Shown piece after piece: positions 14,384 to 18,815 of a stretch of 45,144 bases of DNA (position 1 is the first letter of the stretch; each line of letters begins with the position of its first letter). Made by a program: the position numbers and the translations under genes. Below the pieces are notes generated by a model. That model was not told the DNA's origin, did not search any database, and worked only from the letters and a program-made list of their open reading frames with translations. Source of the stretch: an uncultured bacterium (GTDB taxonomy: Bacteria > Patescibacteriota > Minisyncoccia > Phycocordibacterales > UBA9973); the NCBI GenBank assembly GCA_903894955.1, contig CAITSA010000004.1, positions 1 to 45,144 on the forward strand, in the 5' to 3' direction.

Positions 14384-17300
14384 CTATTTGATCACGAAAT
14401 TTTTTAATTCTAAGATTATAGGAGCAATAGACTCATTGTTTATATCCTCTGGTTTTATTTTACATTTTGCAAAAATTTGTTTTTCAATTTGTCTTATGGC
14501 ATTTTCAAATGCGTCTCGTTCAGGCGTATTTTCTTTATGATGTGCATAGCGCTTTCTTAAATCCACAAGTCTTTGTTCTATACTTACTACGCCAAAAATC
14601 CCCACGCGTTCATCACAGTAATCAACGATTTTTTTACCCCAATCCATAGCAGAAGAAATATCGGGTGCACCTAGAAAACTAATGGAATTGATTAATTCCA
14701 CTACGCGTTCACTCACGTTTATTTCTTTGGCAATTTTTGAGTGAGCAGAATATTCATTTTTGCCATATTTTTTAATGTACTCATTTTGAACATTTTGCCA
14801 ATATTCTATTCCTTCTGGTTCATTAAGTTCAGAAAAATAATTTAAGTCAAATTTAATAATATTTCCCATATCGTGAAGCAGGCAGGCAGTGATAATTTCT
14901 TCTTTTGGTAACGGCTCGGTAAAATTATCACAAATCAAAGATGCCACTGCCGCCGTTCGGAGCATATGTTCCTGCAAGCTCGGCATGATTTTATATTTTT
15001 TATATATTGTTTCAATAGGAAGAGGCATCTTGTCTCCTGGGTTAAGACCGAGCTTTTTTCTTTGATCTTGAAGCTCTCGCATAAACTCACGATACTCCCC
15101 CTCTGCTTTGAGTGCTGGAGTAATATTTATATCGAGTTCTACTTCTGTTTTTAAATTTTTATTTTCTAAAATATCTTTTACATTTATTTCATCTTTTATC
15201 AGATCAGCAAATTCTTTTCCTAAAACAAAATTCTTAACTTCTAGTTTAGAAAGTGGTTGACGCACTTTTAATCCAGCTTTTTGTCTAGCTTCAAGCCCCA
15301 AAGTTACAATTTTTCTGACTATCTCCATATTGTCTATAACCCCCTCCTTCTCCTCCCCTTTATTAAGGAGGAGGTTGGGTAGGGGTATAATTCCAAAAAG
15401 TTTTAATTGTTTAGCAGGCCAATTTTCCAAATGCACACTTTCTTTATCACTATCTGTTTTTAATTTCAGCCAAATATCTTCTGCTGTAAACGGAGCAAAG
15501 GGAGCCATAATTTTAGTAAGAGTTTTTAGTACAAAATATAAAGTCGCTCTTGCCCCGTCCTCTTTGGCGGGGTTTGTTACCTCTTCTTTAATACGCTCAC
15601 GGGAACGACGTAAATACCAAGTAGAAAGGTCGCCAATAAAATCTTTTATTCCTCTGACGGGTTCCAATAATTTATAATCATCCATTTTCTTTGTAGATTC
15701 ATCAATCAATTCATCTAATCGCGCTAAAATCCATTGGTCAAGCACATTTTTTGACTTGGGTTTATCTCGACTTGCCCCGTAGCGAGCTTGCTCTGCTATG
15801 GGGTAAAGTTCATAAAACGCAAGTACGTTATAGAGCAAAGTAAAAACTTGTTGATGTAGTAAGGAAACAGTTTTTTCATCAAAATTTTTAGATTCACCTG
15901 GTTGATTAACCGAGTACATCCAGAGACGAAGTGTGTCGACACCATATTTATCCATCGCATCCCATGGATCAACAATATTACCGAGAGATTTAGACATTTT
16001 CTTCCCTTTCGCATCTAGTAAATGTCCTAAGCAAATGACATTTTTATAAGCTTTCCCTCGTCCCATCAATACCCCAACAGCATGAAGGGTATAAAACCAT
16101 CCTCGAGTCTGGTCAATCGCTTCAGAGATAAAATCAGCAGGATAACCCACACCGTCTACCCATTTTTTATTCTCAAATGGATAATGATCTTCCGCAAAAG
16201 GCATACAGCCAGAATCTAGCCAGACATCCATCACTTCTTTAGTTCTTACTAAATTTCCACCACAGGAACAAACAAGTTTTACTTCATCAATATATGGTCG
16301 GTGTAAATCAAGTTCATAATCTTCATTATGTGGAAGGGGTACAAAATCAAGTTCTACCACTTTAGCATTAGGAAAATCTATAGTTTTATTTATTAAATGT
16401 TTGGTTGTTTCAGCATCATTTAATCCCTTTATCCCAGCTGAAAGCATATTGGCCGGTCCCTCATGAGTAACAATTAAAATATTTCTATCTTTGTATTTAT
16501 TTTCAATATCATAAAGAAAACTTGTCATTCTTGATTTAACTTCTTTGCAAGATTCCCCATTCTTTGGTACACAAAGATACCAATCTTGTTTGGACTTAAA
16601 ATCAAAGTATTCTTCCCATGTTTTTCCGTTAAAAATTCCAGTATTTATTTCTCTAATTCTCTTATCAAAAATAAAATTGTTATTTTCAATTTCTAATTCT
16701 TTTTTTACAATTTCTGCAGTTTCTTTAGTTCTCGTAAGATCAGAGGAAATTATTAAATCTATTTTTTTATTTTTTATTTCAGAAATGGAATTCAAAACCT
16801 GTTTCTTTCCTGCTTTGGTTAAATGATCTGCACCTCCAACTTCTGAACTTATTATATATTTTACATTGCTTTCTGCCTCACCATGTCTCATCACAAAATA
16901 TTTGTTACCAGATTTTTTTGTTTTTTCTTTTATTTCTTGAATGCTGCCAATAACCTCAACCTTCTTGCAAGTTTCACAAACCCAAACTGGAAGGGGTGTA
17001 CCCCAATATCGTTCACGAGAAATTGCCCAATCTTTTATCTCCTCCAACCATTGTCCAAAACGCCCATCGCGAATATGCGCTGGCTCCCAATTTATTTCTT
17101 TATTCTCCTTAATCATCTTTTCTTTTATTTTTGGATCAGAAACTTTGATATACCAAGAATCTCGAGCATAATAAATAAGCGCTGTTTTACATCTCCAACA
17201 ATGAGGATAAGAGTGTTCATATTTTTCTTTTTTTAACAAAAGTCCTCTATGGGCTAAATCTTTAATAATATCAACGGCTACTTCTTCGTCCCGCACAAAT

Positions 17301-18514
17301 CTACCTTCGAATATTCCCGTTCCGGGTAGAAATTTTCCATCCAAGCCAACCAAATGATGCTTGGGTAAACCAATCTTTGTGCCAAGTTCAAAGTCATCCT
17401 GTCCATACATTACTGCTGTATGCACCACACCCGTACCGTCTTCAGTGGTGACAAAATCCGCTCCGTAAACTTTATAAGCTTTTTCTAGTTTTAGTTTTTC
17501 ACTTTCAGAAATAATATTTTCTAAATATGGATATAATGGTTCGTATTCCAAGCCAACTAAGTCTTTACCTTTTAATTCTTTTATCACCTCATATTCCCCA
17601 TCTATTACAGAAAGCCGATTTTTAGCGAGAATTAAAAATTCGTTTTCCCCGCCCGCCGGCGAGGCAGGTTTTTTTATTTTTACATAATCAATATTTTTTC
17701 CAACCGCTAAAGCCACATTACCAGGTAATGTCCACGGGGTCGTGGTCCAAGCAAGAATGTAGCTATCAGTGGAAATATCGCTCTTGCGGGGTGTCTCGCA
17801 GGCTGACGAGCCGAGAGGCAGCGCTGTGTCAGCAGACACAGACAGCGACCCTGCGGGAGTGATATTTCCACCTACTATTTTAAATTTTATATACACTGAT
17901 AAATCTTTTACATCTTCATAACCCTGCGCAAGCTCATGCGAAGAAAGAGCGGTTCCGCACCTTGGACACCAAGGTACAACTTTATAATCTTTAAAAAGTA
18001 AATTTTGATTATTTATTTTTTTAATAATATTCCAAACAGACTCAATATAATCGTTGTGATATGTCACATACGGATTTTCTTGGTCAGCCCAATAGCCCAT
18101 CCTTTCTGTGAAATTTTTCCATAATCCAATATATTCCCAAACACTGTCTTTGCATAATTTATTGAAATCTGAAATACCATAATTTTCAATATCATTTTTT
18201 GATTTAAACCCAAGCTTTTTTTCTATCTGTAATTCTACTGGTAAACCATGTGTATCCCAGCCCCCTTTGCGACGAACATGAAAGCCACGCATAGTTTTGT
18301 ACCTTGGAATAACATCTTTAAAAGAAAAAGGTACCATCGTATGTAAAACTGGCTTAGAATTTGCTGTAACTGGGCCATCATAGAAAATAAATTCTTTTCT
18401 TCCTTTCGATTGTTCTAAGGATTTTTCAAAAGTTTTATGTTCTTTCCAAAATTCTAAAACACGCTCTTCACGAAGAGCCGCGTCAGATTTTTTATTTGTA
18501 TTTTTTTCTTCCAT
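14384..18514 (-). CDS. ileS: Isoleucyl-tRNA synthetase fused to histidine phosphatase (internal) and HD hydrolase (C-terminal)
   Basis: PRYKTMRGFHVRRKGGWDTHGLPVE, VPWCPRCGTALSSHE, WTTTPWTLPGN, ISRERYWGTPLPVW, WLDSGCMPFAEDHYPFE, GKKMSKSLGNIVDPWDAM. Confidence 0.96.
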   Translation of the reverse strand: MEEKNTNKKSDAALREERVLEFWKEHKTFEKSLEQSKGRKEFIFYDGPVTANSKPVLHTMVPFSFKDVIPRYKTMRGFHVRRKGGWDTHGLPVELQIEKKLGFKSKNDIENYGISDFNKLCKDSVWEYIGLWKNFTERMGYWADQENPYVTYHNDYIESVWNIIKKINNQNLLFKDYKVVPWCPRCGTALSSHELAQGYEDVKDLSVYIKFKIVGGNITPAGSLSVSADTALPLGSSACETPRKSDISTDSYILAWTTTPWTLPGNVALAVGKNIDYVKIKKPASPAGGENEFLILAKNRLSVIDGEYEVIKELKGKDLVGLEYEPLYPYLENIISESEKLKLEKAYKVYGADFVTTEDGTGVVHTAVMYGQDDFELGTKIGLPKHHLVGLDGKFLPGTGIFEGRFVRDEEVAVDIIKDLAHRGLLLKKEKYEHSYPHCWRCKTALIYYARDSWYIKVSDPKIKEKMIKENKEINWEPAHIRDGRFGQWLEEIKDWAISRERYWGTPLPVWVCETCKKVEVIGSIQEIKEKTKKSGNKYFVMRHGEAESNVKYIISSEVGGADHLTKAGKKQVLNSISEIKNKKIDLIISSDLTRTKETAEIVKKELEIENNNFIFDKRIREINTGIFNGKTWEEYFDFKSKQDWYLCVPKNGESCKEVKSRMTSFLYDIENKYKDRNILIVTHEGPANMLSAGIKGLNDAETTKHLINKTIDFPNAKVVELDFVPLPHNEDYELDLHRPYIDEVKLVCSCGGNLVRTKEVMDVWLDSGCMPFAEDHYPFENKKWVDGVGYPADFISEAIDQTRGWFYTLHAVGVLMGRGKAYKNVICLGHLLDAKGKKMSKSLGNIVDPWDAMDKYGVDTLRLWMYSVNQPGESKNFDEKTVSLLHQQVFTLLYNVLAFYELYPIAEQARYGASRDKPKSKNVLDQWILARLDELIDESTKKMDDYKLLEPVRGIKDFIGDLSTWYLRRSRERIKEEVTNPAKEDGARATLYFVLKTLTKIMAPFAPFTAEDIWLKLKTDSDKESVHLENWPAKQLKLFGIIPLPNLLLNKGEEKEGVIDNMEIVRKIVTLGLEARQKAGLKVRQPLSKLEVKNFVLGKEFADLIKDEINVKDILENKNLKTEVELDINITPALKAEGEYREFMRELQDQRKKLGLNPGDKMPLPIETIYKKYKIMPSLQEHMLRTAAVASLICDNFTEPLPKEEIITACLLHDMGNIIKFDLNYFSELNEPEGIEYWQNVQNEYIKKYGKNEYSAHSKIAKEINVSERVVELINSISFLGAPDISSAMDWGKKIVDYCDERVGIFGVVSIEQRLVDLRKRYAHHKENTPERDAFENAIRQIEKQIFAKCKIKPEDINNESIAPIILELKNFVIK
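14387..15005 (-). other. HD-domain phosphohydrolase-like C-terminal extension of IleRS
   Basis: SLQEHMLRTAAVASLICDNF ... EEIITACLLHDMGNIIKFD ... YSAHSKIAKE fits H...HD...H spacing. Confidence 0.85.
15335..15389. repeat. TATACCCC palindromic element in frame in ileS, related to the DUF559 cassette ends
   Basis: TATAACCCCCTCCTTCTCCTCCCCTTTATTAAGGAGGAGGTTGGGTAGGGGTATA; its complement aligns with 4815..4852. Confidence 0.8.
15550..15575. repeat. Short palindromic element in ileS
   Basis: TTGCCCCGTCCTCTTTGGCGGGGTTT; encodes NPAKEDGA. Confidence 0.6.
15771..15808. repeat. Palindromic element (CTTGCCCC...GGGGT family) in frame in ileS
   Basis: CTTGCCCCGTAGCGAGCTTGCTCTGCTATGGGGTAAAG, close to the glyS copy. 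Confidence 0.8.
16345..16910 (-). other. Histidine phosphatase (phosphoglycerate mutase-like) domain inserted in IleRS
   Basis: NKYFVMRHGEAESN ... ISSDLTRTKETAEIV ... REINTGIFNGKTWEEY ... ILIVTHEGPANM: RHG, second Arg, Glu and second His all present. Confidence 0.92.
17645..17668. repeat. Short GC-rich palindromic element in ileS
   Basis: TTCCCCGCCCGCCGGCGAGGCAGG in AT-rich context; encodes PASPAGGE. Confidence 0.6.
17770..17870. repeat. 101-bp imperfect palindrome in frame in ileS
   Basis: TGGAAATATCGCTCTTGCGGGGT ... ACCCTGCGGGAGTGATATTTCCA arms, with inner TGTGTC-AGCA-GACACA hairpin. Confidence 0.85.
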
Positions 18515-18530: not shown

Positions 18531-18582
18531 AATAAAAAGTCCGTCCTCGTGCAACTAAAAAATTAATTGCGCAAGGACGGAC
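18531..18582 (-). terminator. T-box regulated intrinsic terminator
   Basis: Minus strand GTCCGTCCTTGCGCAAT...AGTTGCACGAGGACGGACTTTTTATTT. Confidence 0.88.
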
Positions 18583-18715
18583 TTCGCCGTGGTACCACCT
18601 TGTTTTTTACCCGCTTTTGCCGGGACTTCTCATTACGGCTATAACGGGCTTACCCGTCGGGTTCTACTTATTTTCTTCCCGAAGCTCCGAGGTGATTACC
18701 CCTTCAACGCTTGTG
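18531..18715 (-). promoter_or_regulatory. T-box riboswitch leader of ileS, apparently with very short Stem I and AUC (Ile) specifier
   Basis: Minus strand: GGGGTAATCACCTC (AUC at 18694-18696), AAGTAGAACCCGACGGGTAAGCCCGTTATAG, and AAGGTGGTACCACGG T-box core before a terminator. Confidence 0.85.
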
Positions 18716-18815
18716 TATAAAATATAACATTACAAGAAAAAGAAGACAAGGTAGATGGTCACTTGTTTTCTTAAACCTTGATGTAAAGAGTTAGTATTAA
18801 ATATTAATACCACTT

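Follow-up and report, generated by a model that had tools for sequence, protein, structure and literature searches.

A stretch of 45,144 nucleotides (nt) of DNA from an ultrasmall, uncultured bacterium of the Candidate Phyla Radiation (CPR), comprising positions 1 to 45,144 of contig CAITSA010000004.1 (assembly GCA_903894955.1) and here called the window, very probably carries on its minus strand a T-box riboswitch of class III, the type with a short Stem I, which acts on transcription of ileS, the gene for isoleucyl-tRNA synthetase (IleRS). The leader runs from 18712 to 18531, is about 185 nt long and lies about 17 nt upstream of the ileS open reading frame (ORF). A preliminary description of this DNA had placed a T-box core on this strand, in what it took for a CPR-like genome. 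Both points hold: UGGUACC lies at 18591-18597 within AAGG-UGGUACC-ACGG, in an element spanning 18531-18712, and the closest relatives of the IleRS belong to Nomurabacteria and other Paceibacterota/Parcubacteria. Every element of the leader, together with its covariation, its specifier, its match to tRNA base 73, its promoter position and its terminator, is read from sequence and from comparison with relatives:

18721 to 18749, minus strand: promoter-like TTGTCT-17-TATATT, with 9 of 12 consensus bases, ending 8 nt before Stem I.
18682 to 18712, minus strand: short Stem I of 31 nt, AAGC-GUUGA-A-GGGG[UAAUCA]CCUC-GGA-GCUU (RF00230 alignment, covariation), made up of an outer helix AAGC/GCUU, kink-turn strands GUUGA/GGA and the hairpin GGGG[UAAUCA]CCUC.
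18694 to 18696, minus strand: specifier AUC, an isoleucine codon, in the apical hexaloop UAAUCA.
18659 to 18680, minus strand: stem II, GGG-AAGAAA...AGUAGAA-CCC, with S-turn-like strands AGUAGAA/GAAGAA (RF00230 alignment).
18642 to 18657, minus strand: stem IIA CGGG/CCCG with F-box CCGUUA (RF00230 alignment).
18607 to 18630, minus strand: stem III CCCG/CGGG, seen in the sequence, whose flanks AGAAG (RRRxG) and AA form the discriminator purine string, a motif defined in PMC7583486.
18573 to 18601, minus strand: antiterminator, with helix A1 AAGG/CCUU, the 7-nt bulge UGGUACC and helix A2 ACGG/CCGU.
18591 to 18597, minus strand: T-box bulge UGGUACC, whose UGGU is complementary to the ACCA-3' end of tRNA-Ile (A73).
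18531 to 18582, minus strand: intrinsic terminator, a hairpin at 18539-18582 followed by the U tract UUUUUAUU, -33.4 kcal/mol.
14384 to 18514, minus strand: ileS, encoding an IleRS of 1376 amino acids (TIGR00392, 860.6 bits).

The covariance model RF00230, whose use had been proposed as a check in the preliminary description, matches the leader from its first to its last model position, with 62.3 bits and an expectation value (E) of 2.5e-13 over the 401 bases searched. On the 627-kb genome E is 9.2e-14, and this leader is the only T-box found there. The predicted fold lies 5.4 standard deviations below those of dinucleotide shuffles. Stem I, described beforehand as only about 30 nt long, measures 31 nt, and the promoter-like element abuts it: with the start taken as about 7 nt past the -10 box, transcription is expected to begin near 18714, right at the Stem I base, so that Stem I would form the extreme 5' end of the RNA. 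This arrangement recurs in relatives, where all 28 ileS leaders scored have a -10-like hexamer whose end lies 6-11 nt ahead of the conserved Stem I start, the distance being exactly 10 nt in 18 of them. A longer Stem I hidden upstream, which would have undone the original proposal, is rejected on the promoter position in the window and in these 28 relatives. The AUC triplet does lie in a small loop, as had been suggested, and it is the surroundings that required correction: the GGU-AAUC-ACC layout gives way to the hexaloop GGGG[UAAUCA]CCUC.

Comparison with related genomes carries most of the structural argument. T-box matches were obtained from 90 of the 297 genomes of the same order, and of 97 distinct leaders containing the core motif 29 lie before ileS. 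A plain search for a hairpin with a 6-nt loop misses about one third of ileS leaders owing to variable loop length, and a flexible search anchored on the kink-turn, followed by alignment, was used instead. Within the aligned ileS leaders, A18 T19 C20 (the specifier) form the sole run of three adjacent invariant Stem I columns, UGGU is present in all 29 and the antiterminator strands are likewise invariant, their helices being paired in 100% and 96.6% of cells. The helix around AUC, by contrast with this constancy, varies in step (GGGG/CCYC, GGAG/CUCC, GAGG/CCUC, AGGG/CCCU, GAAAGA/UCUUUC). Changes on both sides occur at 13 of the 21 proposed pairs, a count that none of 500 shuffles equalled, including 3/4 pairs of the upper Stem I helix and 5/5 of stem II; across the 21 pairs the proportion of paired cells is 90.4%, falling to 54% when one strand is shifted by one base. 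The covariation called for at the outset is thus present in both the Stem I and stem II helices, and the kink-turn and the stem II S-turn are each indicated by a sequence motif with covarying helices. A model built from these 29 leaders has hits in 44 of the 61 family genomes searched. Among 27 loci outside the set used to build it, 26 precede ileS, each with AUC, UGGU and a terminator; the remaining locus precedes aspS and has AAC. For these loci the pattern search gave a wrong specifier in three and no specifier in four, and reading of the sequence gave AUC in all seven. The earlier identification of AUC as the specifier is strengthened accordingly.

Other genes of the order provide a further check on specificity. 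With gene identities assigned by NCBIfam, the other large groups of leaders precede aspS (n=32) and thrS (n=17), and two precede serS. In aspS leaders the triplet in the Stem I loop is GAC or AAC, and most thrS leaders show ACC in a NN-ACC-AA loop. When Stem I loops of ileS, aspS, thrS and serS leaders were searched blind to the gene, the cognate codon was present in 51 of 55, against a mean of 27 and a maximum of 38 in 5000 permutations; the aspS codon set had been widened to Asn codons after AAC was seen, which softens this excess and does not explain it. The final base of UGGN agrees with base 73 of the tRNA in each case: U in ileS, for A73 of tRNA-Ile(GAU) in three genomes of the same family; A in thrS, for U73 of tRNA-Thr(GGU) in the genome to which the window belongs; and C in serS and most aspS leaders, for G73 of tRNA-Ser and tRNA-Asp, again in that genome. 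Since the leaders were not found by base 73, this agreement is an independent check.

In the expression platform, terminator and antiterminator share a strand, GUCCGUCCUU, which serves the former as 5' arm and the latter as 3' strand. Folding gives about -30 kcal/mol for the terminator stem alone, and the bare antiterminator, with its bulge drawn in, reaches -3.7; the terminator being far more stable, the OFF state should win without tRNA. A consensus terminator scan of the window did not detect it, owing to one internal mismatch, and it is folding that reveals it. The antiterminator/terminator arrangement with a T run noted from the window holds for the whole group, all 29 ileS leaders having a hairpin of -21 to -35 kcal/mol and a U tract after the core. 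With a loose cut of -10 kcal/mol, terminators follow 95 of all 97 leaders and 44 of 205 control stretches. A genuine T-box could nevertheless act mainly on translation, or on both levels, as in Actinobacteria, with the hairpin and U tract secondary. Class III T-boxes do mostly control translation initiation (PMC10482949), and the hairpin ends only about 24 nt from the ATG; set against this are the strength and constancy of the terminators, their shared strand with the antiterminator, the absence of an obvious Shine-Dalgarno sequence between U tract and ATG in the window, and the detected ORF of some relatives, which begins well over 150 nt past the core. Translational control is accordingly considered improbable.

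Several points weigh against a transcriptional class III T-box. Firstly, the score of 62.3 bits falls short of the RF00230 gathering score of 93, and a gathering-threshold Rfam run of the leader returned nothing. A default run is silent because the score is below this cut-off, and the score is low because Stem I is about 70 model positions short between its two helix strands; the cut-off is an annotation threshold rather than a biological criterion, and the match emerges only in E-value mode. The missed threshold would suit a constitutive intrinsic attenuator resembling a T-box core by chance, a notion so strongly refuted by the genome-wide E over the full model, and by the invariance and covariation across 29 ileS leaders, that its probability is negligible. 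Secondly, 10 of the 29 relatives lack the innermost pair of the Stem I hairpin and have loops of 7-9 nt rather than 6, and stem IIA is lost in about one third. The stem IIA/B pseudoknot with F-box, a class III trait, is putative here: stem IIA and CCGUUA are present in the window, and for pairing between the loop of stem IIA and UUA of the F-box, which was considered, the linkers look too short. Thirdly, tRNA-Ile(GAU) was not found in the genome itself (76.6% complete) and was found only in relatives, which is why base 73 was taken from them. Finally, transcriptional T-boxes are generally held to need a long, elbow-binding Stem I (PMC7583486), short ones being mostly translational (PMC10482949). 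The rationale is kinetic: a transcriptional T-box must catch its tRNA before polymerase passes the terminator, hence the elbow platform, and short T-boxes tolerate slow binding since they act on translation (PMC7583486). Reduction of this kind raises the thought of a decayed relic, inherited with the gene after tRNA sensing was lost. Stem I is indeed truncated relative to class I, stem IIA is absent in many relatives, and two related genomes have a thrS leader with no Stem I at all; a relic would hardly be expected to keep AUC and UGGU strictly invariant within covarying helices across many genera, or base 73 agreement for four amino acids, and we regard it as very improbable.

If the leader is a working transcriptional T-box, tRNA binding, the sensing of charging and the switch itself would operate as in the known members of the family. 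RNA polymerase would start at about 18714 and make Stem I at once. The AUC loop would then pair with the GAU anticodon of tRNA-Ile, braced by the kink-turn and the stem II S-turn with no contact to the tRNA elbow; such bracing of the specifier-anticodon pairing by the S-turn is seen in class III crystal structures (PMC10482949, PMC7583486). With uncharged tRNA-Ile, its ACCA end would pair with UGGU, the antiterminator would form and ileS would be transcribed. With charged tRNA or none, the terminator hairpin would take the 3' strand of the antiterminator, and transcription would stop at the U tract, at about 18531-18538. CPR bacteria are thought to obtain amino acids from their surroundings, and a charging sensor on IleRS would fit such an uptake lifestyle.

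Among known systems, the closest are the class III leaders of Nocardia farcinica and Mycobacterium tuberculosis ileS (PMC10482949, PMC7583486). Shared with them are a short Stem I without elbow-binding motif, a specifier in a penta- or hexanucleotide apical loop (here UAAUCA), tRNA-Ile specificity, stem II with an S-turn, stem III, the UGGN bulge and the position before ileS. The resemblance to the ultrashort-Stem-I class of actinobacterial ileS leaders had been pointed out in the preliminary description, correctly, with the terminator as the distinguishing addition. Class III has a Shine-Dalgarno sequestrator in place of that terminator, and its usual control of translation initiation is not what the 29 ileS leaders display. 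The host groups also differ (CPR bacteria here, Actinobacteria there), the same architecture in CPR also serves aspS, with a GAC or AAC specifier, and in some CPR relatives the loop has 7-9 nt or stem IIA is missing. With class I (Bacillus subtilis tyrS; RF00230) the leader has in common transcriptional antitermination, stem II, F-box, stem III, the UGGN antiterminator and a K-turn at the Stem I base; unlike class I, it is without the distal Stem I (about 70 model positions), whose long double T-loop platform for the tRNA elbow is the hallmark of that class, and its specifier is apical rather than in an internal loop. The class II glycine T-box (B. subtilis glyQS) is likewise a transcriptional switch with the same discriminator logic, and its long Stem I without stem II is the reverse of the present design.

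The combination of short Stem I and transcription terminator, unusual under current models, is to judge by these genomes common in this CPR group. Clear RF00230 matches occur in 90 of the 297 genomes of the order, none of them above the gathering cut-off, which therefore hides them; across the phylum 129 of 381 genomes match at E <= 1e-3, 13 of them above the cut-off, several of these with long matches. Leaders with a short stem and terminator also occur outside the order, e.g. L237 (AUC, UGGU), and L248 and L250 (GAC, UGGC), and long and short T-box leaders seem, from such matches, to coexist in CPR. The presence of a T-box here, singled out in the preliminary description, does deserve attention; that description understated the case, since the feature is lineage-wide and no single oddity. 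A census of phyla in 2008 placed T-boxes in Firmicutes, Actinobacteria, Chloroflexi, Deinococcus-Thermus and Proteobacteria, and TBDB sought translational forms in Actinobacteria only, with truncated class I hits in addition. No report linking T-boxes with CPR bacteria was found in the accessible literature, most subscription papers and the TBDB records lying outside its scope. On balance we lean towards the view that minimal transcriptional T-boxes form a large, hitherto unrecorded set in CPR; to sense tRNA co-transcriptionally they would need no more than specifier pairing, the discriminator and an S-turn stem, with no elbow contact, sometimes no stem IIA and, in the thrS leaders of one genus, apparently no Stem I. 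If true, the rule of a long Stem I for every transcriptional T-box would fall, and a lineage combining short Stem I with terminators makes the kinetic rationale for a long one directly testable. Such T-boxes would also mean that bacteria with reduced genomes and a probable dependence on hosts, about whose regulation almost nothing is known, control genes by sensing tRNA.

The leaders vary considerably around this design. Seven ileS leaders (L035, L039, L042, L059, L067, L086, L095) are without stem IIA/F-box and the stem III hairpin, stem II nearly abutting AUGAGAAGUAA; in L086, Stem I through antiterminator occupy 109 nt, which may approach a minimal T-box. Another ileS leader, L285, has an extra hairpin beside the specifier inside Stem I and resembles the intermediate-length class IV. 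Eleven thrS leaders (L022, L026, L109, L111, L112, L138, L148, L155, L160, L161, L167) carry ACC in the 7-nt loop NN-ACC-AA, with the specifier hairpin and other small hairpins inside a closing helix, and neither a kink-turn nor an AGUAGA S-turn can be recognised. Such a multibranch Stem I fits none of classes I-IV. In two of the five genomes of one genus, the thrS leaders L287 (G106) and L288 (G254) are confined to promoter, AAGUG-stem III-AA, antiterminator (UGGA) and terminator; both Stem I and stem II are missing, and stem III shows a compensatory change between the two leaders. The other three genomes (L289-L291) keep the Thr stem-loop. L287 and L288 may be a discriminator-only T-box or one losing its specificity. 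Several aspS leaders (such as L018, L021, L027, L123, L131, L151, L154, L156, L159) have the Asn codon AAC in place of GAC, and the AspRS is of bacterial type; the codon suggests that these leaders respond to tRNA-Asn, a dependence to be expected if the enzyme aminoacylates tRNA-Asn as well, with amidation to follow. Longer leaders of a second type (L005, L006, L017, L028, L114, L126, L127, L134, L157), with a GUGGARAUCCGG-like motif (UGG codon) and UGGC or UGGU, precede carboxylate-amine ligase-like, tryptophan dehydrogenase-like, trpB and unknown genes; these are probably tryptophan T-boxes.

The IleRS downstream of the leader is fused, as had been stated: a histidine-phosphatase (branch 1) domain is inserted at residues 540-705, between the two halves of the catalytic core, and an HD domain stands at the C end (residues 1182-1228). 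All three IleRS relatives checked share the insert, and one of the three the C-terminal HD domain. Directly upstream of the leader, an ORF of 53 amino acids (18977-18816, minus strand) without a Pfam match has three Cys and a very basic C end, and looks like a small ribosomal or nucleic-acid-binding protein.
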